Shown here piece by piece: positions 31,901 to 55,513 of a stretch of DNA of 64,000 bases. The first letter of the stretch is position 1. Each line of letters starts with the position of its first letter. The position numbers were made by a program, and so were the translations under genes. Under the pieces are notes generated by a model. The model was not told the DNA's origin. It ran no database searches and saw only the letters and a list, made by a program, of their open reading frames with translations. Source of the stretch: Liolophura sinensis (lineage: Eukaryota; Mollusca; Polyplacophora; Chitonida; Chitonidae); the NCBI RefSeq assembly GCF_032854445.1, contig NC_088300.1, forward strand, positions 64,268,984-64,332,983, written 5' to 3'.

Positions 31901-33788
31901 ATCTCACACAACATCAAAAGGAGTTACATATTTCATGATCTTTCCTGCCACCACTATGCCTTGTAAAATATATGCCTTTATGGTTAAGAAATGCATGCAT
32001 TACATTGTGGCCTAACCTTATTCATAATCCAAAGATTGAAACAAAACATGTAGATGTACACAAACAGGTCACTGATGGTACACCAACAGTGCAACTTAAT
32101 TTTTATCATTCCAAAGCAACATTATGTAAGCTTTACACTTCATAATAACATAAAATTTTACCAGCAAACTACATGCAAGATTATATACCATAAGAAAGGT
32201 CTATATCCATTTCAAGCTCAGTATGTTGAAAACAACAAAAGTAGAGTTTTCCAATAAGAGTTGCTTTCTTTTTTTTTTTAAAAATAATATCATATTGATT
32301 GTTGCCTTGTGAGACCTCCACCAACTACCACTAGAGGACTACACAAGGCAACATCTATTAATCACAATGTTATATTATTTGAGAGAATGGGTATGCATGT
32401 ATATGATAAGCACGCCCCTACTCCATATGTATTAAATACATGTTACATTCATTATCCATAATAAAGACTAGTTTGCATTGTACCAAATGAATGATTTAGA
32501 ATATCAACAATTATTGCAAAACTAATGTTGAATGTAATAAACTGTTTCAGGCTAAAAAGAAAATATACTGGACGCTCCGACAAATATAGCTTTGGTATTG
32601 TTCCACAAACATTTGTTTCGGCACTTAACTGGTTCTGAGTAAAATACAGAACTCCTGGCATCAGATATGCTCATGACAGTCAGATTAATGAATGATCGTG
32701 ATTTCAGAAACAAAATGAAACCACATAAAGGGGAAGAGATATACAAGTACATTTGTACACATGCATGTACCTCATATGGGTATTGTGCATGACTGGTAAA
32801 AACAAAAATAGTTTGGTCCTTAAACACTGATAATGTCAGAGTCATAGAAGAGGCAAAGTGTAACAAAAAAAAAACAAAAAACAAATGAATACAATCTGGC
32901 CAAAATTATCATCATCAATATGAGTAGGATTTAACAAACGAAAAAGTCAAACTGAGAAAAACAAGTTGATGAAAACTTATCTAGTTGTTACTGATATAAT
33001 AATAGAGACGTAAATATCTTATCTAGCAGACCGCATCAGAAAAAAATGTTGCAACGTGGTAATCAATAATTGAGCCTGGTTCACCTACAAGTAACAGGTC
33101 TGTGGTCTGTCTACACTAAATTATATGGAATAACGTCATCAGTCGTCCGACTCCCAGGCTGAAGTAAAACATACAATATTAGATCAAACATTTCTGATCA
33201 GTTATTTACAGTTTGCGGTCAAATATTTGATAAATATTTCGTTTTGGCAAAGTCTGACACTGACAGACAAATCAGGAAATTGGCACTTTATTGGTATGGT
33301 CAGGTTAACCCTGACCACCGGCCGACCCGATGCCCTTCCACTTCCAGCTGCCGGTGGTGTATACACACACACAACTGTCAAATGACAACTCCGAACCACA
33401 ACAGCAACAACCCTTTTTCTACCGGCGTCTTGAAGATATCCCACGCCGATCAGAGGCCATAGAGCAACAAAAATACTTACTGGCAATCTGTCATAATCTC
33501 CTCCTGTGTTCGAATCTGCACGGGAGCAAATTGCTCCACTTTTTCTTCATAGTCACAGAAACACTTGGTGATTTTATCATCAAGAGTGTTCACGAGATCT
33601 TCTAGAGATCCCGATAATGTCTCACCAAAATTTTCAGCCGACGAATTGTCTGTTTTTGCTGCACTTTTCATACTGTTTGATCCTTTGTTCGACCTGTTTT
33701 CATCTGTAGCTGTTTGGTAATCATTAAAATCGTTCCATTCTTCGTTTTCAAACGTAGCGAGGGGAGCTTCGAATTTCAACTCCGCCAT
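10904..33788 (-). CDS. FEZ: FEZ/UNC-76 family protein (fasciculation and elongation protein zeta)
   Basis: Eight coding exons on the minus strand: 33481-33788, 31214-31322, 23256-23412, 22542-22650, 14141-14406, 12912-12987, 11322-11387, 10904-10920. All junctions are GT/AG and all phases agree (2,0,0,1,0,1,1). The predicted protein is about 368 residues, close to vertebrate FEZ1/FEZ2. Diagnostic stretches are GNLLPIDW, SDDEELSQAFDMHSLIVS, SADQAITEIE, the coiled-coil region LVQELALRDDLEFDKELKNQ, and the C-terminus TVPTLLTDYILKVLCPT. FEZ proteins are cytosolic kinesin-1 adaptors in axonal transport and outgrowth; that role is family knowledge. The start chosen (33788) has a Kozak-like AAAATGG and gives MAELKFEAP; an in-frame ATG lies upstream at 33860. 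Exon 3 is 157 bases, one too many for its phase-0/phase-0 flanks, so the reading frame breaks near 23319-23323. Confidence 0.93.
10971..11167. mobile_element. Small inverted-repeat element family M, copy 1
   Basis: About 197 bases with matching ends, 'cttcaaccttttcgcatg' at the left and an inverted 'catatgagaaaaggttgaag' at the right. Related copies lie at 25847-26012 and 27468-27622. It sits in the last FEZ intron. No coding capacity; MITE-like. Confidence 0.6.
11322..11387 (-). CDS. FEZ: FEZ coding exon 7
   Basis: 66 bases between TTTGTAG and GTGGGC. With the split codon it encodes ILEAINEDSPTVPTLLTDYI then LK, the strongly conserved FEZ C-terminal segment. Enters in phase 1 from exon 6 and leaves in phase 1. 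Confidence 0.93.
11618..11820 (+). repeat. SINE family A, 5'-truncated copy with target-site duplication
   Basis: SINE body starting at 'gctggcttcctctccggcc' and ending in a pure run of 23 A (11786-11808). It is flanked by direct copies of 'tcaaagtaggca' (11620-11631 and 11809-11820). The perfect duplication and long A tail indicate a young, LINE-machinery-mediated insertion. It lies in FEZ intron 6. Confidence 0.9.
12912..12987 (-). CDS. FEZ: FEZ coding exon 6
   Basis: 76 bases between TTTTACAG and GTAAGT. Encodes YLTTVIPYHLQQ then GPPSSEQLQIYIK, matching the FEZ segment just before the C-terminal TDYILK block. Phase 0 in, phase 1 out. Vertebrate FEZ has extra sequence between the coiled coil and this exon; I found no separate exon for it between 12988 and 14140. 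Confidence 0.93.
14141..14406 (-). CDS. FEZ: FEZ coding exon 5 (coiled coil)
   Basis: 266 bases between TGTCTCAG and GTGAGT. Encodes MKSMPLGALNDLLTEYE, then the predicted coiled coil with LVQELALRDDLEFDKELKNQ, followed by a basic run RRENNIDRKRNKKNKPNNN. This is the FEZ region that mediates dimerisation and partner binding in vertebrates. The first two bases complete a codon begun in exon 4. It is the second longest coding exon after exon 1. Confidence 0.95.
14452..14545 (-). repeat. SINE family A, degenerate fragment
   Basis: Begins with the reversed 3' tail (tttatttatttgatt) and keeps weak matches to 'gtactcaa' and 'ccagttttatggtagga'. Most of the core is decayed. In FEZ intron 4, just upstream of exon 5. 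Confidence 0.4.
14925..15428. repeat. 29-bp minisatellite in FEZ intron 4
   Basis: About 18 tandem units of 29 bases, with a few shorter ones at the left. Each contains 'agaccagccagtgtga' followed by TGATGTCA, TGACATCA or, once, TGACGTCA. Units vary mainly at the two central bases of that 8-mer and in 'ggccag' versus 'accag'. The array is clean and flanked by ordinary intron sequence. Confidence 0.95.
16360..16550 (-). repeat. SINE family A, long degenerate copy with tRNA head
   Basis: Read on the minus strand, it starts with a tRNA-like head (A-box-like 'tgctggtgtagtgcagtgac', B-box 'gagttcaagtccagc'), then 'ttcctctctggcc' and 'ccataatgctggctgcc', and ends in the 'caccaatcaaac' tail. It is the copy that best shows the tRNA-derived head of family A. 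In FEZ intron 4. Confidence 0.7.
17144..17288 (-). repeat. SINE family A, minus copy with possible target duplication
   Basis: Core blocks 'gattggtgtttatgccgtat', 'acggccagcattatggtggg' and 'ccgggcagagcctggggg' are clear. 'gagtttatttattt' occurs at both edges (17144 and 17273), consistent with a target-site duplication of a 5'-truncated insertion. In FEZ intron 4. Confidence 0.7.
18664..18688 (+). repeat. Uninterrupted run of 25 G
   Basis: A homopolymer of 25 G in FEZ intron 4. On the transcribed (minus) strand it is poly(C). Such runs are unstable and often mis-sized in assemblies. Confidence 0.95.
19465..20080. repeat. 57-bp tandem repeat in FEZ intron 4
   Basis: About ten units of roughly 57 bases with the blocks 'atatgcatatagcctctttg', 'acagttgtctgcacactgta' and 'aagctgctcatgacaga'. 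The unit length is a multiple of three, so it creates long open frames on the minus strand that repeat every 19 codons. These are artefacts of the repeat. Confidence 0.93.
21002..21794 (+). mobile_element. Inverted-repeat DNA element family T, copy 2 (deleted form)
   Basis: About 0.8 kb. The left end 'gacagcacctggctataac' and the right end (reverse complement 'gacagcacctgactaatg') form imperfect terminal inverted repeats. It shares 'gattgcgcggcctaagctgt' and 'ttattattttaatgagattt' with the copies at 2.6-5.1 kb and 58.1-59.4 kb, but lacks several hundred bases of their middle. In FEZ intron 4. Confidence 0.65.
22542..22650 (-). CDS. FEZ: FEZ coding exon 4
   Basis: 109 bases between GTTTGCAG and GTGAGT. 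Encodes DAPPEETCIDDIIPEM then PAPYTSVKERLSHLPTYPEA and the first base of the next codon. This is the acidic, poorly conserved middle of FEZ, equivalent to the part after MMQESPDPE in vertebrates. It is supported by splice sites and phase more than by similarity. Confidence 0.85.
23073..23086 (+). repeat. Poly(C) run
   Basis: 14 consecutive C, followed by a further C-rich patch. In FEZ intron 3, about 170 bases downstream of exon 3 in the direction of transcription. Confidence 0.9.
23256..23412 (-). CDS. FEZ: FEZ coding exon 3 (frame break inside)
   Basis: 157 bases between TGTTACCAG and GTAAGC. The first part reads ECEEENLDLSDDEELSQAFD then MHSLIVSSLQS; the second part, in the next frame, reads NNEDPVVSADQAITEIECMMR. 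Both are clearly FEZ (vertebrate FEZ2 has a similar SDDEEL...DMHSIIVS...ADQVIEEIEEMM order). Flanking introns are both phase 0, so the length should be divisible by three; it is one base too long. A splice acceptor-like CTGCAG at 23323-23328 lies right at the break and could start a shorter exon. Confidence 0.88.
23465..23605 (-). repeat. SINE family A copy, internally deleted
   Basis: Keeps the reversed tail and 'gattggtgttttacgccata', then jumps from 'cggccagcaatggc' directly to the head region 'gctcctgggtcattgcgcag', which is a tRNA-like head on the minus strand. The central core is missing. In FEZ intron 2. A second fragment follows at about 23620-23690. Confidence 0.6.
25847..26012. mobile_element. 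Small inverted-repeat element family M, copy 2
   Basis: Begins 'cctcagccttttcacatat', contains the shared blocks 'agtataatttaattagtca' and 'aatgccttcagaatatgctt', and ends near 'aggcgagct'. These blocks occur in the same order at 27468-27622. Ends are more decayed than in the other copies. Confidence 0.5.
27225..27345. repeat. Dispersed repeat, copy 1
   Basis: About 120 bases similar to 28740-28870: 'gattgctttcttataagaaa' versus 'gattactttcttataagaaa', then 'ctggcatcaaaagtattatt' versus 'ttgacatcaaacatattatc', then 'acttttatttactttacata'-like ends. In FEZ intron 2; identity unknown. Confidence 0.6.
27468..27622. mobile_element. Small inverted-repeat element family M, copy 3
   Basis: About 155 bases from 'cctcaaccttttggcatatg' to 'aggcgaaaaggtt', giving terminal inverted repeats of the form CAACCTTTTxGC / GCGAAAAGGTT. 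In FEZ intron 2. Confidence 0.6.
28740..28870. repeat. Dispersed repeat, copy 2
   Basis: Direct-orientation partner of 27225-27345. It is followed by a short 'acatgtacatac' tandem tract. Confidence 0.6.
31214..31322 (-). CDS. FEZ: FEZ coding exon 2
   Basis: 109 bases between TGTTTTCAG and GTAAGT. With the split codon it encodes MWWTITGNFGNLLPIDWSK then SYVRKLHTKALNLPEKQ. It aligns with the FEZ2 stretch containing WDALTDNYGNVMPVDW and LHLLTLNL. Enters in phase 2, leaves in phase 0. Confidence 0.93.
33481..33788 (-). CDS. FEZ: FEZ coding exon 1
   Basis: Encodes the acidic N-terminus beginning MAELKFEAPLATFENEEWND, then SLEDLVNTLDDKITKCFCDY and APVQIRTQEE, as in FEZ1/FEZ2 (EDLVN.FDEKL). The donor is GCCA|GTAAGT. 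The ATG at 33788 has context AAAATGG; an upstream in-frame ATG at 33860 would add 24 residues. Confidence 0.92.
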
Positions 33789-33851
33789 TTTAAGCTCCCT
33801 CATCCTGCCCGACTGGCCTTCACCCGCGGTGAACCCTTTGACCCCCTGCCC

Positions 33852-33910
33852 TGACGTCATCGTTCATATTTTATGCAAGGCTTGGCCAATCAAATTCAAT
33901 GGCGCGGGAA
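33852..33910 (-). promoter_or_regulatory. FEZ proximal promoter elements
   Basis: Just upstream of the FEZ start are a perfect cyclic-AMP response element TGACGTCA (33852-33859), an inverted CCAAT box (33886-33890) and a TTCCCGCG motif in the minus-strand sense near 33901-33910, which resembles an E2F site. No TATA box is obvious. Transcription start is not known. Confidence 0.5.
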
Positions 33911-38425: not shown

Positions 38426-39870
38426 TTATTCAAATAAGCCATGGAAGTCTTCCTTTTCCGTCAGTTGTTTCTTGCAAAATGGTGGATTGTGACATAAATA
38501 TAACCATGGTCTTAAAAGTTGGGTGAACTGCGATGGGTATGGTGACAGGCTGGACTTGTGGAGATCAACAGCCGACAAGACCTTGCTTACCATCGTCTCA
38601 TGATCATTGAAAGAAAGTGACTTGCTTTCGGTGGGATCTTTTTCTACGTCAAACAATAAAGGCGGGTTAAAAATGTCTCCTGAGCAACTACGCGAGTAAA
38701 CCTTGTACTTGTCAAAAGTGACAGCTGCAACTCCACTGATGTCACAATAATGCATAAGAGCTCTACTCGAAACGGCAGTCCTGGGATCTTTCAGTCTCGG
38801 AAGTAGACTTATGCCATCTACGTTCAGAAGAAACCCAGGTTGTACAATGTCACGTATTGTTGGGAGTATATCCATTAAGCTGGCAATTACAGAGGTCTGT
38901 TGTTGCGTCTGTATGACTGCTGGCCATGTGATAATGGCGGGAACGCGTATACCACCCTCCAACACTGTTTGTTTTTCTCCCTTTAAATGCAGTACATCAT
39001 ACGAATGCCCCGTGAAATAGCGAAGAGATCCCCTCATGCCTTCAGGATGCTGGGCTTTGGTGATAGGGTTTGTTAACTCGGCACCGTTATCGGAAGCAAA
39101 GATGATCAGTGTGTCCTTGTAAACGTTAAGATCTTTAAGCTTGTTTAGGATGGCCCCGACACTCCAATCCATTTCCATTACGGAGTCCTTATACAGACCT
39201 TGTCCAGATCTGTTCCGAAACCAAGGGGAGACAAATGGTGGATAATGAGGCTGGAGATAAGACATAAATAGGAAAAACGGTTCTTTTTCTTTGGCCATGG
39301 CGGAAACGAATTCCAGCGACTTTTTGGTCATTCGTAATGTCATGTTTTCTTCCACATAAGGCTGTTCCAAGATATTCTGGTTATGCATCCAAACGCACGA
39401 TTTTGGATTGAAAACGGCGAAAGAAAGATACGATCCATAAGCTATTACAGCTATGACATTAACACCAAGCAGAAACTTTGCCAATGGTTTGCGCAGAAGG
39501 CCAAAGTGACTTGTTACCAGCAATGCTATTAGAACGGGTAAAAGTCTACGACTAAATGAGAAGAGCATGTCTAAGTCTGTAATGCGGAACTCGTCGTTCA
39601 GAGTACACTGGGGTCCGTGGGACACTGGGGTGCCGTAAAATAAGTCAAATCCAAGATTTAGGGGTAAGTGTTCTCCTCCTTCTCCAACACCAAGGTTCCA
39701 TTTACCAATCATAGCCTGTCTGTAGCCCTGATATTTCAAGAATGTCGGTAAAAGTGTCCCATTCAAGCCATTAAGTCCCCCTGGCTGGGCGACACTGTGA
39801 AAGTCCGAGTTACGAAGGATAGGCAAGGCTTTAGCGTCCCTGAGCATGCCATACCGGACAGGATACTGAC
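38426..39870 (-). CDS. Sulfatase A exon 2
   Basis: 1445 bases after the acceptor TTCTTGCAG. Holds everything from PVRYGM to the C-terminal [12 protein letters not shown] segment, including the hairpin and the NMTLRMT glycosylation sequon that matches the conserved site in human STS. Confidence 0.95.
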
Positions 39871-41835
39871 CTGCAAGAAAGAATACACATCTGTATATAT
39901 TACACAGCATATGGGTTCCGCTACGAATCGCTTACAATTTATTGAGCTCCTCGGTTTAATTATATACATCTGCTGCTCTAAATCAAACGACGGTATACCA
40001 AAGATATGTTATAGGGTTCTTTGTACATCCTAGTTTATAGCTTACACAATTCACGTACTTTTTCTGTCTTGCAGGATTTTAGAGGATTTCTCACATCTCA
40101 GCGGATGTATTTACCTGTGCAAACAGCTCACTGAGGTACCATTAAAATGTAAACTTTGAACATCAGGCACAGTCAGAAAATCACAACAGGATGAGGAGGT
40201 TTCTGTGGGCAAAGTACAAAGACCACTGTGGTGTTTCCTTTGCAAAGAAAATATTTCCACCGTGATTAAACAGTTTTCTCACACAGGAAGAAAGATTTCA
40301 AAATATTTTCATTGTGAAAAGCATACCCACCACTGTTCAAAATTTTCCGTGCAGAAGAAAAGTAAACCGATTAGTGTATGGAAACTGTTCAGATGTTTCA
40401 CGGTCAGCAGTGAACCTATTTTCTTTGTCACAGAATACAGCCTGCACGTGACTTGCCTTTCTCGCGGATTCATTTCAGTCCATCATCATTGTGGGATTTG
40501 GACTGCATGAAATCTTCATCAAATTCAAACAGATGTAGCACAAAAGCATGATACGACCATAGCTGACAGTGTTAACTGTCTCATATTCAAAGAGCTTCGA
40601 TACATGAGAACTGTTGCCCAAGCTTATCAGTCAAGTCTGGGTGGACTTTGTGGCCATAAAATACACCTTTCGGGAAAAACTAAACATTTTACTATATTTG
40701 CATTTTACTGACACTGAGATGCAAAATATTCTTTTCATTTTATAAAAGGCATATACAGTGATACGAGGGAGTATAAAAATGAATGCATGAATGCTTGGAG
40801 TTTAACGTCGTACTTAGCAATGTTTCAGACAAATGACGACGAGGAGTCAGTGTGTGCATATCCTGTATCTTCTTGTAGCAGGGCGAGTCCATGCCGCCAA
40901 AGTGGTATCGCCACTGAAGCATCATGACAAAATACACCAGGCATGACACCTCACTCAGTCACATTACACTGACACCCGGCCAACCAGTCGCGTTTCCTTA
41001 CTCTAACCTCTCAGTACTGAGTGCCATGCGAGGCAGCAACAAGTACCATTTTTAAGGTCTTCAGTGTGACCTGGTCCGGGTTTGATCCCGGGTATCTGTA
41101 CTTCAAAGGGTGTATAAACCAGGGAGGAAATATAAACACATGCATTTTGAGCCCGTCGTAGAAAACATTCATTTATTTATTTATTTATCTATTTATTTTA
41201 TTGGAGTTTACGTCATACTCAGGAATAAGACGCCGGACAGCTTTATGGTGGGAGGAAATATGGGCAGAGCCCGGGAGAAACCCACTACCATCTGCGTGTT
41301 GCTGGCTGACCCTCCTACAAGTGACCGGAGAGGAAGACAGCGTAAGCTCGACATGAATCGCAGAAAGCATTGTCTAAATCCAAATTTGTTTCAGATCTCT
41401 CACTGAACTATTGTGGGACCTACGCTCATCCATACAATTGTGAAATCATGCGCTGTATTTCACGCCTGAGCAAACGAGGTCAAGTGTACGTACTGCAGGC
41501 ACTACAATGCAGGCTTCCCCCGGAATATGTCCTTTGTGCATGTAGCTAGTTTATATGCACACCTCTGTGTGCTGCATGGGCCTACCTGTGAGAATCGCTG
41601 CCCTAGCCGAGGTGTCCCCAGGTTCTGTATACATCCTAGTAAATCTCAAACCATCCCCTGCCAGTCCGTCAATGTTAGGGGTAGTTGCCTTGTCATTGCC
41701 ATAACACCCCAAATCCCCGTACCCGAGGTCATCGGCCAGGAACAAGACGATGTTGGGGTTAGAAGCCACTTGTCCCTGTTCCAGTTGAACAAGTGCCACC
41801 ACCAGCACGCAACGTGCAAACATCTGTGGATTCAT
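38426..41835 (-). CDS. Sulfatase A: steryl-sulfatase-like protein lacking the catalytic cysteine (probable pseudoenzyme)
   Basis: Two exons, 41586-41835 and 38426-39870, joined in phase 1 ([10 protein letters not shown]); 564 residues from the ATG at 41835 (alternative at 41823). It has a signal peptide ([15 protein letters not shown]), the metal-binding [14 protein letters not shown] (Asp35, Asp36), a membrane hairpin at about residues 200-250, the QPH motif, FASDNGAE and [14 protein letters not shown]. The family motif C-T-P-A-R is D-T-S-A-R here (Asp74), so there is no cysteine to convert to formylglycine. The GKWHLG motif is GKWNLG, losing the active-site His (Asn142). The frame is otherwise intact over its full length. 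Paralogues B and C keep both residues. The fold is sure; loss of sulfatase activity is inferred from the known mechanism. Substrate is unknown. Confidence 0.95.
40785..41095 (-). repeat. SINE family B, minus copy
   Basis: Contains 'gtttaacgtcgtacttagca', 'gacgacgaggagtc', 'gggcgagtccatgccgccaa' and, at the head end, 'tgatcccgggtatctg', which is a reversed B-box. Close relative of 52312-52662. Confidence 0.75.
41170..41362 (-). repeat. SINE family A, minus copy
   Basis: Starts with an extended (TTTA)n tail, then 'cggacagctttatggtggga', 'gggcagagcccgggagaaac' and 'gaccggagaggaagacagcg', reaching into the head. Confidence 0.75.
41586..41835 (-). CDS. Sulfatase A exon 1
   Basis: Signal peptide plus the first strand of the sulfatase fold, ending CACAG|GTAGGC. 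The catalytic-motif codons read GAC ACC TCG GCT AGG where B and C read TGC/TGT ACN CCN GCC/GCG AGG-type codons. Confidence 0.93.
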
Positions 41836-44800
41836 ATTAATCACAGTTTTGTGCAACTATACAGCGGTTCGAGTTAGGTCGTATGCACCTCGTAACCTTC
41901 ATACATTGTGAAACTTCTGCAACTTGCGTAGAGATCTACATACTCTTGCAGGTGTTCTCTAGATGTCCATGTACGAAGGATATAAGGGCATATGGGCGTA
42001 CCCGACCGGAAGTATCGTTAAAGAGACAGGCCTGAGCATGACCTGCTATCCCCTCCCACCTGGGCCTCATTTAAATAGATGTCCTCCATACGCCTGTCTC
42101 CATTTTCTCTTGATGAAAGGATTCGCGTAGACAGCCAACTGTACCGAGAAGGGTTATAACACAAATACGGCTACCCGCATACATATCATCACGTGTTATA
42201 AATTGAATCAATTTAATTATTCGTTCATTCTACTATAGCATCTGATTCTTTTGTACGGCATCGATTAAACAATCTGTCAATTCATTAAACAACCATACAA
42301 ACAAACAGACATAAAAATATACGAGCAAACCAATTAAAAAACACTAAAAATACTATGATCCCTTAGCTACCCTACTTGCTGCACCCACAAAACATCCCAC
42401 AAGAAAAATTTTATTGAAATATAGGCCTATCACGAGGGCTGATCACAACGGTTTTACAACTGAGGTGAATATACGTTCAGTGACAAAATGAAAACACACG
42501 ACAGGCGATTCAAAATCATATACCAAACTTTGACACTCGCGATGGGTTTCAAGCAAAATTGTGAGGTTTAAACCAAGTTCGCTGTAATTCAGTATTGGAT
42601 ATGGGTAGATACTACATTATACCGGTTTGCCAGGCATGTTTCGTCAGTACCAGTCATGTCGCTCGATTGCCGTTCTAATAAAATACTGATTATCTATCAA
42701 TCATGTAAAATTATCATGTAGAAAACGTGTATATTAAGAGCGAATGTTGGCACGCACTAGTATCTAGCCTATATATGGAGTCCCATTCGGATCATTCTCA
42801 TTGCGATAGCAGTGTTGTAGAACGGCTGTGGTTATACCTTTACAGGTCAAGAAAATTCAAGTCGAGATTCATTATTCATTTGGTAATCCAGTATTCAAAT
42901 GTACCAATAAACAAGCCCATCAAGTCAGGCTATAATTAGCACTATGTACTACTATTGTACAACGTAGGCTACGTATAAATGTCAATAATGTTCAAAATGT
43001 GGCACACTAAGCAGTTTCTCGTTTGTTTAAATTGAATTTTTGTTACGCTAATTGAAATTATTTCGGTTATTATTGCTGGTTTTCTTTCTTTGTGTCAAGC
43101 GCAGAAATAACAAGATTGAAAGTATTACATGAAATCTAAAGCCGCTACACACCTTCGCTTAATTATAACTGAGAAGTGCTACGCTTGATTTATGGGTGGA
43201 GAAAATCAGGTAGGTCCCGGAGAAAATCACAGCTCTTCAGCTGATTGGTACCTAAGAACTACTATGACGCAAGACCGAAGCTTAGTCAATCAGGTGTTTA
43301 GATTCGACTATGCGGTCTCCTTGCTCAGTTGCTGTAGTTTTGCACTCAAGCACCCTGAAGTAAGACCAATAAGCAGCCTTAAGAAGACCAATGATCAGCC
43401 TGAAGTAAGACCAATGGGCAGCCTTAAGTAAGCAATGATCAGCCTGAAGTAAGTCCAACCAACACCCTTGAGAAAGACAAACCAGTAGCCTTGAGTAAGA
43501 CCAACCAGCACTTGACACTAACTAATAGCCTTGAGCAAGTCCAACCAACAGCCTTGAGCAAGTCCAACCAACAGCCTTGAGCGAGTTTAACCAACAGCCT
43601 TGTGCAAGACTAATTAGAAGCCATGATCAACCAGCCTTCGGTTAGACCAACCAGTAGCCTTGGGCAAGACCAAACAGCAGCTTTCAGCAAAACCAATGAG
43701 CAGCCTTGAATAAGATCAATCTGTAGACTTCAGTAAGTCCAACCAGTAGTCTTACATAAGACCAGCCAGCAGTCTTACATAAGACCAACCAGTAGTCTTA
43801 TGTAAGACCAATCAGTAACCTTCAGTAAAAACAGCCAGCAGCCTTAAGTAAGAACAACCAGTAGTCTTAAGTGAAGACCAATCAGCAGTGTTGAGTAAAA
43901 CCAGCCAATAGCCTTATGTAAGACCAATCAGCAGCCCTTGGCAAGACCAGTCTGCAGCTTTCAGTAAGACCAACCAGTCGCTTTGAATAAGACCCATCAG
44001 CAGTCTTTGAGTAAGACCAATCAGTGACCTGAGTCAGACAACCAACAGTCCTGAGCAAGACCAACCAGCAGCCTTGAACAACAACAATCAGAAGTTTTGA
44101 CTAAGACAAACCAGTAGCCTTCAGCAAAGGCCATCCAGCAGATTTGAGTAAAACCAACCAGCAACCTTAAGGCCAATAAGCAGCCATGAGTAAGACCTAC
44201 CAGTAGCCTTAAGCAAACAGAATCAGTATCCTTAAGCAAAACCAACCAGAAGCCTTGAGCAAGACCCAGTAGCCTTCAGCAAAACCAGTCAGAAGTTGAG
44301 TGTTGAGTAAGACCAACCAGTAGGCTTAAGTAAGAACAATCAGCAGCTCTGAGCAAGACCAATCTGCAACTTTCAGTAAGACCAACCAGTAGGCTTAAGT
44401 AAGAACAATCAGCAGCTCTGAGCAAGACCAATCTGCAACTTTCAGTAAGACCAACCAGTAGGTTTAAATAAGAACAATCAGCAGCTCTGAGCAAGGCCAA
44501 TCTGCAACTTTCAGTAAAACCACCAGCAGCCTTAGTAAGACCAACCAGCAGTCTTGAGTAAAACCAATCAGCAACCTTGAGTAAAACCAATCAGCAGCCT
44601 GAGTATAATCAACCAGCAAGGCAGCAGTCTTCAATAAGACTTATCAGAAGCCTTGAGTAGACCAACAAGCAGTCTTACGTAAAACCAGCCAGTTGTCTTA
44701 TGTAAGACCAATCAATAGCCGTGAGTAAGACCAACCAGTAGCATTTAGTAAAACCAACCAGCAGCCTTAGTAAGAGCAACCAGCAGTTTTGAGTAAAACC

Positions 44801-45148
44801 AATCAGCAGCCTTGCGTAAAACCAATCAACAGCCTGAGTATAATCAACCAGCAAGGCAGCAGTCTTCAATAAGACTTATCAGAAGCCTTGAGTAGACCAA
44901 TCAGTCGCCTTAAGTAAAACCAATCAGTAGCCTTAAGTAAAACCAGCCAGAAGCCTGGGTGTAAACAGCCTTCAGTAAGACCAATCAGCAGCCTCGCAGT
45001 TGAGAGGTCCTGGTGTCAAATTGTGCATACAGGTGTCAAAATGTATAACGAACTAAACTGGTTTTCATATTTGTCTAGTTCAAGAACTCTTCATGATCCA
45101 CATACAAAAAAGAAACAGCATAGGTATAAAAATAAAATGATAAAAATC
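41836..45148. other. Intergenic region between sulfatases A and B
   Basis: About 3.3 kb. The left half is unremarkable AT-rich DNA; the right half is the long 24-bp minisatellite at about 43355-45000. Confidence 0.7.
43355..45000. repeat. Long degenerate 24-bp minisatellite
   Basis: About 1.65 kb of imperfect tandem units near 24 bases: 'agtaagaccaaccagcagcc' followed by 'ttga'. Higher-order copies are visible, for example the block with 'cagcagctctgagcaagacc' repeated three times near 44340-44500. The period is eight codons, so the minus strand shows spurious open frames rich in repeated LLVGLT-like words. Non-coding. Confidence 0.93.
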
Positions 45149-45507: not shown

Positions 45508-47000
45508 TTAAGTATTACTGAAAAGGTATTTGTAATCTTGCTCCTCAGATATAGAAATTTGACAGTAAGGAAAATTTGCACATGGAAAAAGCCATGGACG
45601 GGGTAATCTGGAAAAATGTGAAGACTGGGCCACTATTTCTGGTAATATATTAGACTGCTGCCTAATTACACCCATGTGGATCTTACTGAGCAGTGGCTCA
45701 TATTCCCTCACTGACAGAGGAGTTGTCTCCCCTGGATCTTCAGCAATGTTATAGAGAAGTGGAGGCTGAAGCATGACTCCCGAGCAGCCATGATTATTTT
45801 CACCAGTGGTGTAATACAGTTTATAGTTTCCATATGACACTGCTGCCACAGCACTCATTTCACAGAAATGCAGTAACAACTCATGGTGGATAATTAAGCC
45901 TGGGTCCTTGAATATCGCAGTTAAACTTTTACCATCTATAAATCGGTTAACATTTCCGATTTTCAGAATTTCCTGTACTGTTGGAAAGACATCCATTAGT
46001 GATGCAACAGCATTTGACTGAGAGCCTGGAGGAATGTGGCCTGGCCATGAGATGATCGCAGGCACACGGATGCCTCCTTCCTTAAGAGAACCCTTTGTAC
46101 CAGATAACTCTATACCTACCTGATTGTGGACGGATTTGTACAGAGTAGAACCCCGCATCTCAGGTGGGTTTGGTATGTTTGTGGCAGGGTTTGAGATCTC
46201 AGGGCCATTATCAGAAGAAAAAATTATCAGGGTGTTATTTTTGATACTTAACTCTTGAAGCCGTTTGACAATCACACCCACACTCCAGTCTATCTCCATG
46301 ACAGAGTCATAGTATATTCCTTGCTTGGATTTGCCCATAAAGTTTTGAGATCTTATACTGGGGTGATGGGGCTGTAAGTAAGACATCAATAGAAAAAAGG
46401 GAGACTTGTCCTGTACTGTATCTGATATAAACTCTATGGCCTCATTCGTCATCCTCAGTGTCATATTTTCATCTTTGTACGGTTGCTCGATGATCTCCTT
46501 GTTTCTCATCAGAATGCAAGACAGAGGGTTGTCATGTAGCAAAAAGAAGAATGCACGATGTAGAAACAGGCCAATACAGAAACAAGCAAGGATAAGCACG
46601 ATGGCACGCTTCCCTATCATGTTCATGTATACACCTGTGAGAAGAAAAGCCACACCAGCACTAATGGCTGGAATGTGACTAGAAACAGACCTCACAAACA
46701 AGTCATGGTCAGTCAGTCTGTATTTCTCGTCACTGGTACATCCTGCACAATGAGACCCTGGAATACCATAGAATACATCAAACCCACAGTTCATGGGCAG
46801 ATGTTCCCCGTCTTTCCCCATGCCCAGGTGCCACTTTCCTATCATGGCATTTCGGTACCCTGAGGTCTTTAATATCTGAGGTAGGAAAGTATCCTTGCCG
46901 CAGGCTAACCCACCTGGCTGAGCATTGCTTACAAACACAGGTGACTTGATACCATAAGCATCCGTGTCTTCCATCAACCCATGTCTCACAGGGTGACTGC
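45508..47000 (-). CDS. Sulfatase B exon 2
   Basis: 1493 bases after the acceptor TTATTCCAG. Carries the hairpin and the C-terminal domain. Bases about 46440-46790 are nearly identical to 50810-51160 in sulfatase C. Confidence 0.96.
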
Positions 47001-48103
47001 CTGGAATAATAAAATATCCACAATTTAAAATGAAGTGCAATGGGCTATCATGTTCCTCTTTGAACTAGAAACCACACCTGAAAATAACAGAATGCGGGAA
47101 TTATCAATCACAATAAAATTAGATGATATCCTAATGATCAGTAACGTAATGTTGTACACTTATACAAGTCAAATCTCTTGAAGTCGTTCTGGAGAAAACC
47201 TAAAAGACTGGCAGCCTGTTCAAATGGGTGGCAATAAGAAGGTGGGTGGTGAGGTGAGTTGTCGCCTCTCAGAGCAAACACAGGTAAATGGGCAGAGGTC
47301 ACCTAGGCCCTTGATGCCACACACTCCTGCTTCGCTTGGAGTTCTGGCCAATTTTAAGCCAATGCAACAAATTGATTATGTAAAAAGCGTTATATTAACT
47401 CATTGTGGAGGCCATTCATTTTTATTTATGAACTGGCTGTTTTACAGTACACACTCTTGGCATTAAATATTGCTATCAGCAGATTTATTCTGAAATATTG
47501 ATTTGACATATTATAATAAACTTAACAAATGTCCTGTTTTACACACTGTTTTAAGTTTACAACCACTTTTCAAACATTCCCGAAACCATATACTGGGTGG
47601 CGAAAGGACATTCCCCCAAATAAAGACTGGAGTGTGGGTTGGCAGGGAGGGGGGGGGGCGTGGATGGTAAGTGGGGTTGAGAAAGAGATGTTTGTACTTT
47701 AAAATGTTTGGGCGCTAAATGCCATCGAGTAATGGTGGTAGAAGGGGTTCTGGTTGCATGTCACAGTACTTAGTGCCCGGCTGTGTGTGGACTGACAGGC
47801 GTGAGGGGTAATATACTTTAATACTGCGTACGTACCTGTAAGTAAAGCAGCCCTGGCTGGTGTGCAAACGGGCTGAGAGTACATCCTGGAGAATTTCAAC
47901 CCATCAGTCGCCAAGGCATCAATGTTTGGCGTCGGCACTTCATCATTACCGTAACATCCTAAATCCCCATAGCCAAGATCGTCTGCTAGAAAAATGACAA
48001 CATTAGGTTTTGTGTCTTCGATATTAGGCTCTGCGGCAGCATTTCCAAACCGCAACACTGCACAAACAATTAACAACCTAGCTAAATGCTCACTAGCCGG
48101 CAT
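45508..48103 (-). CDS. Sulfatase B: steryl-sulfatase/arylsulfatase D-E-F-H type
   Basis: Two exons, 47836-48103 and 45508-47000, joined in phase 1 (LTG|SHPVRHG); 586 residues, like human STS (583). Signal peptide MPASEHLARLLIVCAVLRFG, then metal-binding [10 protein letters not shown] (Asp41, Asp42), the formylglycine motif CTPAR (Cys80, Arg84), GKWHLG (Lys145, His147), a two-helix membrane hairpin at about residues 195-250, YLQPH, SSDNGPE and TKGSLKEGGIRVP. All catalytic residues expected for an active type I sulfatase are present. The hairpin places it with the membrane-anchored STS/ARSD/E/F/H group rather than soluble ARSA/ARSB; STS is an ER-membrane enzyme. It should hydrolyse sulfate esters, with the substrate undetermined. 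Predicted sequon NMTLRMT matches a known STS glycosylation site. The C-terminus ends EEQDYKYLFSNT, as in family members. Confidence 0.96.
47001..47835. other. Sulfatase B intron
   Basis: 835 bases with GT/AG ends at the same codon as in A and C. It has a G-rich patch at about 47645-47660 and no recognisable element. Confidence 0.85.
47836..48103 (-). CDS. Sulfatase B exon 1
   Basis: Signal peptide and catalytic motif; ends TTACAG|GTACGT. Same length (268 bases) as the chosen exon 1 of sulfatase C. Confidence 0.94.
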
Positions 48104-49629
48104 ATTTCACTAACTTACTCTCTATGGGACTCTTAACAGCTAGGCAGACCGCGGGGAAAATCGCATGTCCGGAACAGTTTCTAGTAACGGTACTGCACGG
48201 CCTAGCATGTGGCACTGGTTGTTTATAAAACTCGGATCTACATGCATGACCAATTTTACACATTACCCTACAGCTTTATGTGTTGGTGTAAAAGAACAAC
48301 CTTTGAAGACAGTCGTACATGTACAAGCAATAGTATGCAAGCGCATGCACAACTTACAAGTACGCTTACTGCAGTGAGCAACTTACACTGAACAATTTTA
48401 ATCAACTTTCGCATTTTACCATGTCACCGACATTGTGAGCCTGCAGCAACTGACCACGTTCATGAAGTAGTAGATGACAGGGCAGCACCGAAGCTGCATG
48501 TTCTGAGGGCAATGAAGTGCGTCCGGTACAGTCATCAGAACGCTCTGTGTGATCGGGTTATGAGGTAAAAAATGTGACATTTAGCCATGAGCATAAACTT
48601 TACCACAGTCTCTCAGCCAATCAACGTCGAGGTGAAGAATTTGTAGGTTTAATGGCGGGAATTCTCAGTGAAGGGCTGTGCGTTAGATAAAGCCGTCAAA
48701 TCAGAATTTCCTATTGTTGCAGGCCTACTATATCCGTCCGTGTTAAGATTGGTCATCGTCATATTCAGTTAAATCCCTTGCTAGCGACGTGGCTTTAAGT
48801 CAGTTTCAGGTCTTGAGCCCGTTTATCTGTACCATGTGAAAGCTAACTGGATTAAATGCCCTTGATAAATTAAGATATCTTAAATGCGACCGCGTGACAG
48901 GACAACCGCCTGAACCGGATGGTCATGTGAACGCATGCATTTTTATAACCGGCTTCGATGTAAACTGGTTCAGATTTGATCTAGTTCAATTTTGACCGTG
49001 TGAACGGGGTATTAGTATGACAATTTTGAAGTCATTCTGAGCACCTTTGAGCATTCATTTTCAGACGAAGGAAGAAAATTCATTTATTTTGATTGGTGTT
49101 TTGTGCCATATTCAAGAAAAGTTGAATCAGTAATATTTCTCTGTTTTTAATAAATCTTGGATCTGAAGAACTACCGCATCTCACCAGGTCTTGACTTAAA
49201 ATTGCTGCAGTTAAAATGGTTTGGTCTGGGTTTCAGTTTTCAATCTCATTAGACAAGGGCTCGTGGACTTCCACTAGACTGCTCAGTCAGCAATTCATCC
49301 AAAGTCCTTTGGAATGATAATAAATGCTACAGAAAGCTGTCAGTAGCAAGTTGGATCATCAAAATTGCCCGTCATTACCTAATTTGCATACACAATATTT
49401 TGAATGCTCAGCCCTCCATTGAACACACTTTATGAACTCAAGCAATACAGTAAATGTCACATAACAACTACATTGTACCAGTTTGTGTAAATGTGAGTGC
49501 AAATTGCAACAATAAGTGACATCCACATTTATTTTGTAATACATTTAATATTTTGACTAACCATTGTAAATGTCCATCAAAAGAAATTTGAAATTACAAT
49601 CTTACACTTTGTCGAGAAAAATTATTAAA
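48104..49629. other. Intergenic region between sulfatases B and C
   Basis: About 1.5 kb. Holds the 5' flank of B and a short family A SINE fragment at about 49080-49130 (gattggtgttttgtgccata). No gene seen. Confidence 0.7.
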
Positions 49630-49635
49630 TTTATT
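49630..49635 (-). promoter_or_regulatory. Sulfatase C polyadenylation signal
   Basis: AATAAA on the minus strand, about 290 bases after the stop. Other AT-rich candidates exist nearby. Confidence 0.3.
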
Positions 49636-49920
49636 TTCAAGGGCATTGAGGTTCCAAGAAATATGCATGAAAAGAATCTTAAAATGATGAATAAATATAT
49701 ATGTAGTATGGAAAGAGCCATTAAATCATATGTATCGTAAGTGGGTAATCTTACAAGATATATACCTATACATTTTAACAGTATTGTTTTTATATTTACA
49801 TTAAATTTATGTTCTCAAAACATATACAACCACTATGTCACAGACAAAAGCAACATTATGTATAAATGTTTGACAGTTAACTATTGATTATTAGGTATTC
49901 ATAATTTGTTACTCAGGTAG

Positions 49921-51371
49921 TCAAATGTGACAGTAAGGAAAATTTGCACAAGGAAACAGCCATGGACGTGGAACCCTAGCAAAATGTGAAGACTGAGCCA
50001 CTGTTTTTGGTAATAAACTGGTTTGCTGCTTTATAACATCCATGTGAACCTTGTGAAGAAGTGGCTCATGTTCGTACACTGGCAAAGGAGTTGTCTCCCC
50101 TGGATCTTCTGTAATATTGAAGAGAAGAGGGGGCTGAAGTATGGCTCCTGCACAACTGTGATTGTTTTTTCCACTGAGATAGTGCAATTTATAGTTTCCA
50201 TATGACACTGCAGCCACACTGTTCATATCACAGAAATGAAGTAACATCTCATGGTGGATAATTAAGCCTGGGTTCTTGAATATTGGAGTCAAGCTTTTAC
50301 CATCAATAAATCGGTTAACATTTCCAATTTTAAGAATTTCTTGAACTGTTGGGAAGACATCCATTAGTGAGGTCATAGCATTTGACTGAGATCCTGGAGG
50401 AATGTGGCCTGGCCATGAGATGATTGCAGGCACACGGATGCCTCCTTCCCTCACAGAACCCTTTTCACCTGACAGCTCAACACCTGCCTTATGCTGCTCT
50501 GATTTGTACAGAGTAGAACCCTGCATCTCAAGCGGGTTGGGTATATCTATTACAGGATTAGTGATTTCGGGGCCATTGTCAGAGGCAAAAATAATCAGGG
50601 TGTTATTTTTGATACCTAACTCCTGAAGTCGTTTGACAACAACACCCACACTCCAGTCTATCTCCATGACAGAGTCATAGTATTGTCCTTGCTTAGATTT
50701 GCCCACAAAATTTTTAGATCTGAAGCTGGGAACATGTGGCTGTAAGTATGACATGAACAAGAAAAAGGGGGTTTTAGCATGGTCCAGATCTGAAATAAAC
50801 CCTATGGCCTCATTCGTCATCCTCAGTGTCATATTATCATCTTTGTATGGTTGCTCGATGATCTCCTTGTTTCTCATCAGAATGCAAGACAGAGGGTTGT
50901 CATGTAGCAAAAAGAAGAATGCACGATGTAGAAACAGGCCAATACAGAAACAAGCAAGGATAAGCACGATGGCATGCTTCCCTATCATGTTCATGTATAC
51001 ACCTGTGAGAAGAAAAGCCACAACAGCACTAATGGCTGGAATGTGACTAGAAACAGACCTCACAAACAAGTCATGGTCAGTCAGTCTGTATTTCTCGTCA
51101 CTGGTACATCCTGCACAATGAGACCCTGGAATACCATAGAATACATCAAACCCACATTTCATGGGCAGATGTTCCCCATCTCTGCCAATGCCCAGGTGCC
51201 ACTTTCCTATCATGGCATTTCGGTACCCTGATAACTGGAAGATGCGAGGTAGGAAGGTATCTCTGCTACAGGCTATCCCACCTGGCTGGGCATGACTTCT
51301 AAATACAGGCCAGTTTGGACCGAAGATAGCCAAGGAGTCTCCCATTAAACCATGTCTCACAGGGTAACTTC
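49921..51371 (-). CDS. Sulfatase C exon 2
   Basis: 1451 bases after the acceptor CATATTCCAG, ending in a TGA that falls within the region homologous to B's last codons. Confidence 0.95.
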
Positions 51372-53173
51372 CTGGAATATGAAAATAATAGAACAGCATT
51401 ACCATTAATACATGCTCTGGAAGTCATCACATAAGCTTTTCCATATTTATATTAATCGCTAAGGAAGAAAGACAGAATATGCAAACATTTAAAAGAAAAC
51501 AACAAATAATACAACTTAAGTTATGTTAGAAGGGGTGTGGCAACAAACCTAAACAGCCACAGCCATGTTTTTCTGACAAGCTTGTCACTGGTTCAATCTT
51601 CTGTGATTCAAAAGTTCAACTTGCTAGATTACTGTTAAAAAGATGCAGGCTTTGGCATTTATAAAGGTCAGTGAAAGTTTCTGCGTGTAGTTCAGTGGCT
51701 TCGAAGCTGAACTCTGCTTTGAGTTACAGGTAGTCATTACTAGGTATAGATGCACAGAGGTCATTGCACATGCGGTGATTTATTTATTTATTTATTTATT
51801 TGATTGGCGTTTTACGCCGTACTCAAGAATATTTCACTTATACGACGGCGGCCAGCATTATGGTGGGAGGAAACCGGGCAGAGCCCGGGGGAAACCCACG
51901 ACCATCCGCAGGTTGCTGACAGACCCACATGCAGTGAAGGTTGAATATCATAAATATTTTTCTTGTGAGAGGTTAAAATCATAACCCACAAGACGCGAAT
52001 TCTGACAATATCATGATTTTGTGTATTTGAACAAGTCTAAGCAAAGTTTTTGGCTGTAGACCTTCACAGACTTGTGTATATAGCATGGCGGCCTGTCTTG
52101 TAAAGACGTAGGAATGTTAAAGTTGATTGAACTTGTATTATAACATCATTCTGCTAAGCTCTGATTGCTTAAAATGTCAGAGTGACATCAGGGTGTGTAA
52201 TAACAAAACTGATATCTAACTCTTGCCAGTGAGATATTACCTCTATCAGTGATGGAAATCCTGACATTTCACCATTACCGGTATATAAATAATAAATGTA
52301 TATATATTCTTGGGGTCTTATGTCTCACATAACAATTTTTCGTCATGAGACAATGAAGAGACATTAGGTCTATGTACATGTAGTGTGTTATCTTGTGGTA
52401 AGGCGAGTCCATACTGCCACTCAGTGCGCTGAAGCATCATGTCAAAGACACCAGACATGACACCCCACCCAGTCACTTTATACTGACACTGGGCAACCAG
52501 CCCTAGCTGCTTCCTGGTTGTAATCTCTCAGTGCTGAGTGACAAGGGAGGCAGCAACAAATACCATTATTAGATTCTTTGGTATGACCTTGACCAGGTTT
52601 GATCCCCGATCTCTCAGACTTTGAGGCAGATGCTCTTACCATTAGGCCATTAAAGCGGTCTCATACATACTATTACCAAGGGAGAAGAGTGTGAGGATGA
52701 CATCAGTATATATGGTGAATTGTTCAGTTTACATGACGAAATCTCATGACTGAGTGGGTGTGGCTGATACCTAGATACAAATTAGAACTGAGGAAGCTTA
52801 AGAATCTATAGGCCAATCCATTGTATTCTATATGTAAAATATTGGTATGTGGGTGAGATCAAATAATGATCTATGAGGGAGAGTGTATTTTGTAGGCCTA
52901 CGTACCTGTAAGTAAAGCAGCCCTGGCTGGCGTGCACACGGGCTGAGAGTACATCCTGGAAAACTTCAACCCCTCCGCTGCCAAAGCATCGATGTTAGGC
53001 GTCGCCACTTTATCATTACCATAGCAACCTAAATCTCCATAGCCAAGATCGTCTGCTAGAAATATCACAACATTAGGTTTTGTATCGCCATCATCATTAG
53101 AAGAATCAGCGTTACCAGATTGCAATAATGCATATATTAACACCAAACGAGGTAAGGGGCCACAAGCAAACAT
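49921..53173 (-). CDS. Sulfatase C: steryl-sulfatase/arylsulfatase D-E-F-H type
   Basis: Two exons, 52906-53173 and 49921-51371, joined in phase 1 ([10 protein letters not shown]); 572 residues from the ATG at 53173, which gives a signal peptide ([14 protein letters not shown]). An in-frame ATG at 53233 would add a 20-residue polar leader and is less likely. Catalytic residues are complete: [10 protein letters not shown] (Asp41, Asp42), CTPAR (Cys80), GKWHLG (Lys146, His148), YLQPH, ASDNGPE and [13 protein letters not shown]. The membrane hairpin is nearly identical to that of B. The protein stops at FPYCHI, about 15 residues before the end of B; downstream bases still resemble B's tail but with stops. 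Likely a working membrane-bound sulfatase. Confidence 0.95.
51779..51928 (-). repeat. SINE family A, well-preserved minus copy
   Basis: A clean core: (TTTA)n tail, 'gattggcgttttacgccgta', 'acggcggccagcattatggt', 'ccgggcagagcccgggggaa', 'accatccgcaggttgctgac'. It is truncated before the head. Confidence 0.85.
52312..52662 (-). repeat. SINE family B, minus copy with clear tRNA head
   Basis: Read on the minus strand, the head is 'agaccgctttaatggcctaa', 'tggtaagagcatctgcctca' and B-box 'gggatcaaacctggtc'. The A and B boxes are close to functional tRNA promoters. The body matches the copy at 40785-41095. Confidence 0.8.
52906..53173 (-). CDS. Sulfatase C exon 1
   Basis: Signal peptide and catalytic CTPAR motif; ends TTACAG|GTACGT, the same donor as B. 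Confidence 0.93.
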
Positions 53174-54657
53174 TTTTACCTCACTGGTGCTCTCTTGGGT
53201 TTTACGATGAAATGCGAAGATTGAACGGTTCAAACAGAAAGCCGACAGGGAAAGTTGTCAGCGGGACAGTTTCGGTGTTCTAAAAAACTAGGATCTGAAA
53301 GACGAACGGTATGCCCCTCCCTATTTACGTGTCAGCTCTGAGTTTTTAAGCAGAAAATCTGGCGACAATTTAGGTCAGAGACACGCATTCATTCAACTGC
53401 TGGTCACGTACCACATATCTGTAGCGTATATGCAGTGTTTTAGTTCTTACGCAATTTATATGTAGGCTGCCTGATCAAAGTCCAATTTCGCTATTGTAAA
53501 CACGTCGCTGATAAAATTCACAGCGTAAATCAGACACAAAGCGACATACTGTGTGAATGGATTCCATGGTGTAAGCAAGTGTTCAGTCTGATTGAATGAT
53601 CGGGGCTAAACACGTCTGGCACAGTCTGGGACAAACGGTATTTTGATGTTCGGGTATCGGCTATTTGTCTATATAAATGAATGTCCCTTATAATTTCATC
53701 TCTTCGAGTCTGAAACTAGGCCCTATGCTAGCTCTATAGCCCCTATGCATATGTAGGCCTGTATGACAGGTATCAATACAGATAATAACATAATTAGAAC
53801 CAAGCTTTCTGCAAGCATGCATGAACTTTTTATGTTGATCTAGGTAGGCGAAGCCATTGCATCTGGAATTCACACTGATGAACAGAGCCGTGTACATCTG
53901 GAAAAAAAATAGCAATACGTACTGTTCAGTTTGCATGAAGTCGGTCCTTTTGGAAGCAAGTCTTGCCTATTTGGCTTTCATTTTATTTTTATGTGGAACT
54001 AATAGTTAAGCTTGCTGTACAGATTTCAGTTCAGTTCAGTTCAGTTGAGTGACACGTCATGAAGGCGACTCGGAAGATTCGTAATGATGGCGTTCATTAG
54101 TTTCTCGTCCAGTGTAATCCGTTCTAGATGCTGAAGCATATCCGGAAACATTTAATAGGCCTATATAAATTTGAAACTTTCAGTCCTTTTGAATTAGATC
54201 TTTCATTTTCTATACGCTTGTCATTTGTCCATATTTTCAGCCATTTCCAGGCCATACCTTGCGTTTGTTTTGCGTTTATATATATGGCGCTTTAATTTTT
54301 TGGGTAGATAGATGGGTGATGGTGTGTCACACTTCACAAACTTTTCTGTATCTCCATTTTTGCGGTTGGCAGAGAAACCGGACTCTGTCCCTACATGTAT
54401 GGTATCTATATACTGTATAAATAGGTATATGACTTCGTCGTTTCCTGTGTGTCTATATACGCCCATGGCTTGGCCAGCGCTCATATAGCTTTCTGCATTC
54501 AATTAACAGTAATACAGTTTTATTTGCAAAATTGAAATTTCTTGCATCTTTGTAGCTATTATATAGCATTATTTGCAAAACTGATATATATATATATTTT
54601 TTTTTTTTTTATAATTTACAGGCAGGCGTCAAATAAAGCTGGAAGACAGCAGTAAAG
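53174..54657. other. Divergent intergenic region (sulfatase C / SLC46)
   Basis: About 1.5 kb separating two genes transcribed away from each other. It holds a short 'ttcag' tandem tract (about 54027-54048) and an AT tract just before the transporter start. No TATA box can be assigned with confidence to either gene. Confidence 0.6.
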
Positions 54658-55513
54658 ATGACGTGTCGTCACACCTGTAAATCCTTCTTCAAGGGCATAA
54701 CGGTAGAACCTGTACTGTTCGTGTACATGTTGGCGTCTTTTCTGCAGTTTCCCGCGACGCAAGGTCTTGCGTTTTCAAAAGTTTGCCTCCTAAAGTACAA
54801 TAGCACCCAATTTTGTGAGAGACTTAGACACAACGACACGCCAAACTTTGAGGAAACGTTTATTCAGTCGAAGACGTCGTTATGGATTACATTCCTCACC
54901 ATTTCTCTCACGGCACCATCTATTCTAACGACGGCTTTCATTGGCTCATGGGGTGACAAGATCGACCGGAAACTTCCTCTGATACTGCCATGCATTGGTG
55001 GAGCACTTTCTTCCTTGTGTTTCCTGATTAACAGCGTGTTTGTCAAGTTACCTTTGCCTGTGCTGTTAGTTGGACCTATACTGAACGGGCTAACTGGCGG
55101 ATTTGTAACGATGATCATGGCGACGTTCAGCTATGTGACTCACGTTTCGGAAACGAGATCTCGAACTTCTCGTGTTGCTGTCGTAGAAGCCATGTCCTTC
55201 ATCGCCGGAACGCTGGGAGTGATATTAATGGGGATTATTCTTGATCGAGCTAGTTTTACTGTTTTGTTTTCTTTGACGTCAGTCCTGTTCGTCATTGCAC
55301 TTATGTACGTTTTAATATTTGTAAAAAAATTGCAAACAGACTGTGGCCAAAGTCAATCCGACCAAAGACTAAGGCAGCGACTGGGGCACTATTTCAACGT
55401 GACTCACGTGAAGGAATCGATGGTTTGTGCGTTCAGAAGACGCGATGGCCATAATCGCTTACACCTTTGGATTCTGTTTTCTGTCATCGCAATACTAATG
55501 ATTTGCACATCTG
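54658..55513 (+). CDS. SLC46: SLC46 exon 1
   Basis: 856 bases from ATG (context AAAGATGACG), ending CATCTG|GTACGT. Encodes the first half of the carrier, to about residue 285. Confidence 0.93.

Follow-up and report, generated by a model that had tools for sequence, protein, structure and literature searches.

Sulfatases are a textbook enzyme family whose pseudo-enzymes have hardly been described, with the insect cases mentioned only in passing. Members of the formylglycine (FGly)-dependent family S1 carry the motif [CS]-x-P-x-R that is converted to FGly, a definition taken here from PMC5066984, and eukaryotic sulfatases are reported to depend on the Cys (PMC5066984, PMC6823443). For human steryl-sulfatase (STS) it has been proposed that His136 deprotonates the second hydroxyl of FGly and thereby regenerates the aldehyde (PMC4014121). 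According to PMC6823443, clades that lack the Cys are conserved across species in beetles (Sulf2, with Ser, or Gly in Tribolium) and in moths (SulfB, with Gly), and its authors think activity possible for the Ser forms; the same account reports that H125N alone abolished the activity of flea-beetle PcGSS2. Among bacteria, members that are putatively inactive are mentioned in the SulfAtlas paper (PMC5066984). The term pseudo-sulfatase is used by no paper in the literature searched, nor was a case found there of an STS-like sulfatase with both the Asp and the Asn replacement.

A tandem sulfatase cluster in Liolophura sinensis

The window analysed here is a 64,000-nucleotide stretch of Liolophura sinensis contig NC_088300.1, the minus strand of which carries three tandem sulfatase genes, C (53173-49921), B (48103-45508) and A (41835-38426). 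All three share a structure in which a short exon 1 and a long exon 2 are joined in the same phase at GT-AG sites, and the spliced proteins are 564 aa (A), 586 aa (B) and 572 aa (C) in length. B and C are 81% identical, whereas A is 46% identical to them, and all catalytic residues are intact in B and C, unlike in A. The assembly contains a single copy of A, and no exon-1-like sequence other than the first exons of A, B and C is present at the locus. The coding features are as follows.

41586-41835, minus strand: sulfatase A coding exon 1, with a signal-peptide-like start, the metal motif LADDLGYGD, DTSAR at the CxPxR position, and a GT donor right after
38426-39870, minus strand: sulfatase A coding exon 2 including the stop codon, with acceptor ATTCTTTCTTGCAG and matches to PF00884 and Sulfatase_C
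45508-48103, minus strand: sulfatase B (exons 47836-48103 and 45508-47000), CTPAR and GKWHLG intact
49921-53173, minus strand: sulfatase C (exons 52906-53173 and 49921-51371), CTPAR and GKWHLG intact

Profile searches place A in the sulfatase fold family, with PF00884 scores of 47.3 bits for exon 1 and 113.7 bits for exon 2 (curated cut-off 25) and a PF14707 (Sulfatase_C) score of 50.6 bits (curated cut-off 30.9). It also has the hydrophobic hairpin of STS-like membrane sulfatases, at residues 183-238, after the second signature and ahead of the C-terminal half, where it aligns with that of STS. NCBIfam matches were to bacterial models and fell far below cut-off. An AlphaFold2 model of A exon 2 together with nine window and own-genome sequences was discarded (mean pLDDT 42, pTM 0.33).

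Among other features of the window, a long degenerate minisatellite with units of ~23 bp (CAGCCTTGAGTAAGACCAACCAG) occupies 43354-44956, between genes B and A, and two more tandem arrays lie at 14926-15427 (29-bp units) and 19460-20013 (units of about 56 bp). Within exon 2 of B and C (45508-51371) the hydrophobic-hairpin stretch is almost identical while the adjoining parts are more diverged, which looks like gene conversion. An MFS transporter gene lies on the plus strand at 54637-56442 (first exon PF07690, 61 bits) and presumably resembles SLC46-type carriers; minus-strand exons at 33477-33863 and 13994-14458 we take to resemble FEZ1/FEZ2 family proteins.

Active-site residues of sulfatase A

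The preliminary description of this DNA, made from the letters alone, had claimed that A carries D-T-S-A-R (Asp74) where B and C carry C-T-P-A-R, and that its 564 spliced codons contain no stop or frameshift. Translation bears out both statements, the first in exon 1 (41586-41835, minus strand), where an in-frame stop precedes the start and the reading frame runs to the canonical GT donor. A second catalytic loss, absent from that description, is found in exon 2, where the conserved GKWHLG is replaced by GKWNLG. The positions that correspond to the STS active site, all on the minus strand, are listed below.

41614-41616: Asp74 codon GAC, at the site of the FGly cysteine (STS Cys75; alignment with STS)
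41608-41610: Ser76 codon TCG, at the site of the FGE-motif proline (STS Pro77; alignment with STS)
41602-41604: Arg78 codon AGG, kept (STS Arg79; alignment with STS)
41728-41733: Asp35-Asp36, metal ligands kept (STS Asp35 and Asp36; residue map of PMC4014121, Table 2)
39695-39697: Asn142 codon AAC, at the site of the FGly-binding His (STS His136; CAC in B and C)
39701-39703: Lys140, kept (STS Lys134; alignment with STS)
39245-39247: His292, kept (STS His290; alignment with STS)
39086-39091: Asp344-Asn345, metal ligands kept (STS Asp342 and Gln343; alignment with STS)
38972-38974: Lys383, kept (STS Lys368; alignment with STS, coordinate from the exon table)

Sulfatase A thus departs from the S1 motif [CS]-x-P-x-R and from the Lys plus His of the second S1 signature (STS Lys134 and His136), of which it retains only the Lys; in contrast, the four metal ligands (D, D, D, N/Q) and the sulfate-binding His and Lys are all present. 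Of the ten catalytic-site residues in Table 2 of PMC4014121, only Cys75 and His136 are missing from A, with the motif proline (Pro77) lost besides. Given the role proposed for His136, the losses affect both the making of FGly and its recycling, while the metal and sulfate contacts stay; the grouping of these losses as FGly-linked is our own reading of that residue table. At least four replacement changes, in three codons and two exons, are needed to turn Cys into Asp (TGC to GAC), Pro into Ser and His into Asn (CAC to AAC).

Elsewhere A is well conserved, holding 101 of 112 conserved core columns, a share close to that of the outgroup genes with Cys. The universally conserved columns that are changed number 11 in A compared with 2-3 in B and C, and three of the 11 lie among the 10 active-site columns, an enrichment that is only marginal (P = 0.058).

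The Cys is kept (as CTPxR, CSPxR or CSPCK) in every other sulfatase N-terminal exon of the genome that reaches the motif, those ending short of it not being judged, and the own-genome sulfatases inspected have GKWH as against KWN in A. A second pair of STS-like genes, at C6:9.00-9.03 Mb, has a higher identity to STS, of about 49%. C9 carries FGE-type genes (PF03781), so the ordinary maturation route exists in this genome. No relatives of A were found among viral contigs.

Selection and decay

Fixing omega at 1 on the A branch gave lnL -7714.4 as compared with -7679.6 when it was free, a rejection by 35 log units in a test of five sequences with saturated synonymous sites. Because dS on the A branch is itself saturated, the omega value for that branch is not usable as a number, and the rejection covers the branch as a whole rather than the time after the loss. 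That later period was addressed by adding a neutral segment at the A tip, with the three active-site codons excluded. The best length of this neutral tail is 0, and from there the likelihood declines steadily, by 1.5 at 0.020 and by 2.8 at 0.033 substitutions per site, which gives a 95% bound near 0.025 substitutions per site. At 0.025 per site the probability of at least four changes is about 9e-5 over nine sites, although these active-site sites were chosen post hoc, and 0.01 over the 33 nucleotides of all catalytic and motif codons. A neutral tail within this bound is therefore too short for the active-site changes, most of which probably arose while selection was still keeping the protein for something else.

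With canonical splice sites, an open frame, neutrality rejected and the neutral tail capped, A does not have the appearance of a pseudogene in decay. Within the five-sequence analysis it is a homologue that lacks catalytic residues and is under purifying selection, as pseudoenzymes are defined.

Interpretation and alternatives

We consider it probable, at roughly three chances in four, that A belongs to the steroid-sulfatase type and has been retained as a pseudo-sulfatase. Its sequence offers no Cys or Ser convertible to formylglycine and lacks the His proposed to regenerate the aldehyde, but keeps the hairpin and a constrained open frame. The earlier proposal of a retained pseudo-sulfatase rather than a dead gene is supported, and strengthened by the additional loss of His136 to Asn with the metal and sulfate ligands kept, by the rejection of neutrality and by the improbability of a long neutral phase.

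It is unlikely that A is instead a very young pseudogene, in which catalysis was lost so recently that stops have not yet gathered. Simulated neutral decay leaves some room for it, since the frame stays free of stops with a probability of 0.26-0.5 at 0.01-0.02 substitutions per site (0.26 at 0.02), falling to 0.04 at 0.05, and the excess of changed universally conserved columns in A relative to B and C also favours it; however, at least four replacements at the three FGly-linked codons fit poorly with so short a neutral time, and A has kept its splice sites, its signal start and its metal ligands intact. An error of assembly or base calling in these codons has a negligible chance: although the data come from a single assembly, the replacements are separate and lie in two exons of an otherwise open frame, so a single miscalled base is impossible as their source.

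That A is a changed enzyme, an Asp-type hydrolase of the alkaline phosphatase superfamily with Asp74 or a metal-bound water as the nucleophile, is quite improbable. The metal ligands, Arg78, Lys140, His292 and Lys383 are all kept, but the His that aids FGly turnover is gone. The nucleophiles known in this superfamily are Ser, Thr and FGly, and we know of no precedent for an acyl intermediate at this site. The narrower claim that A is a hydrolase of this superfamily with Asp replacing formylglycine is a little more improbable again, an Asp nucleophile being a type of which we know no example there. An active product might also arise from another first exon, for instance exon 1 of B (CTPAR) spliced over 8 kb to exon 2 of A in the same phase. 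Exon phases are compatible, yet the A locus has no extra exon 1, its own exon 1 has a start, a donor and the conserved metal motif, and exon 2 carries His136Asn, the change that is reported to have killed a beetle sulfatase (PMC6823443). Even a product with exon 1 of B would carry the Asn. The preliminary description had named an alternative exon 1 with CTPAR among the findings that would overturn its reading; that objection is weakened, and we regard this route as very improbable indeed.

Under the reading of A as a retained pseudo-sulfatase, its possession of both the Cys and the His losses leads to a strong expectation that the product would be inactive as a sulfatase. A plausible scenario is that A would pass through the secretory pathway and, as in STS, be held in the membrane by the hairpin. 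Asp74, at the place of FGly, would provide a fixed carboxylate beside the metal, resembling the hydrated or sulfated state of FGly, and may be a permanent ligand of that metal. The predicted metal site and sulfate pocket, now without a nucleophile, could then bind sulfated ligands or a partner without turnover, possible partners being the active neighbours B and C. Binding of sulfated ligands is a possibility suggested by the residues that are kept; pairing with B or C, as put forward in the preliminary description, is another possible role.

Comparison with known sulfatases

Sulfatase A offers a clean test case, in that the FGly-linked residues alone are lost while the metal and sulfate pocket is kept, and it is suited to asking if such a pocket might act as a receptor for sulfated ligands or take part, as a partner, in regulating active copies. 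Its best solved relative is human STS (PDB 1P49, 8EG3; E about 1e-78, about 40% identity over the aligned parts), which it resembles in motif order, hydrophobic hairpin, and metal and sulfate residues, but the STS residues FGly75, Pro77 and His136 are replaced in A by Asp, Ser and Asn. The coleopteran Sulf2 and lepidopteran SulfB clades, as presented in PMC6823443, are likewise animal sulfatase paralogues in which the FGly Cys is replaced; the replacements given there are Ser or Gly rather than Asp, and the proteins are insect arylsulfatases whereas A is STS-like. Flea-beetle PcGSS3, PcGSS4 and PcGSS5 share with A an Asn at the same conserved His, with barely detectable activity according to that source, but these beetle proteins keep the Cys, whereas A has lost both residues (PMC6823443). 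Cys-less and His-to-Asn animal sulfatases are thus already known in insects, and the Asp/Asn pair seen in the STS-like A adds a variant to them.
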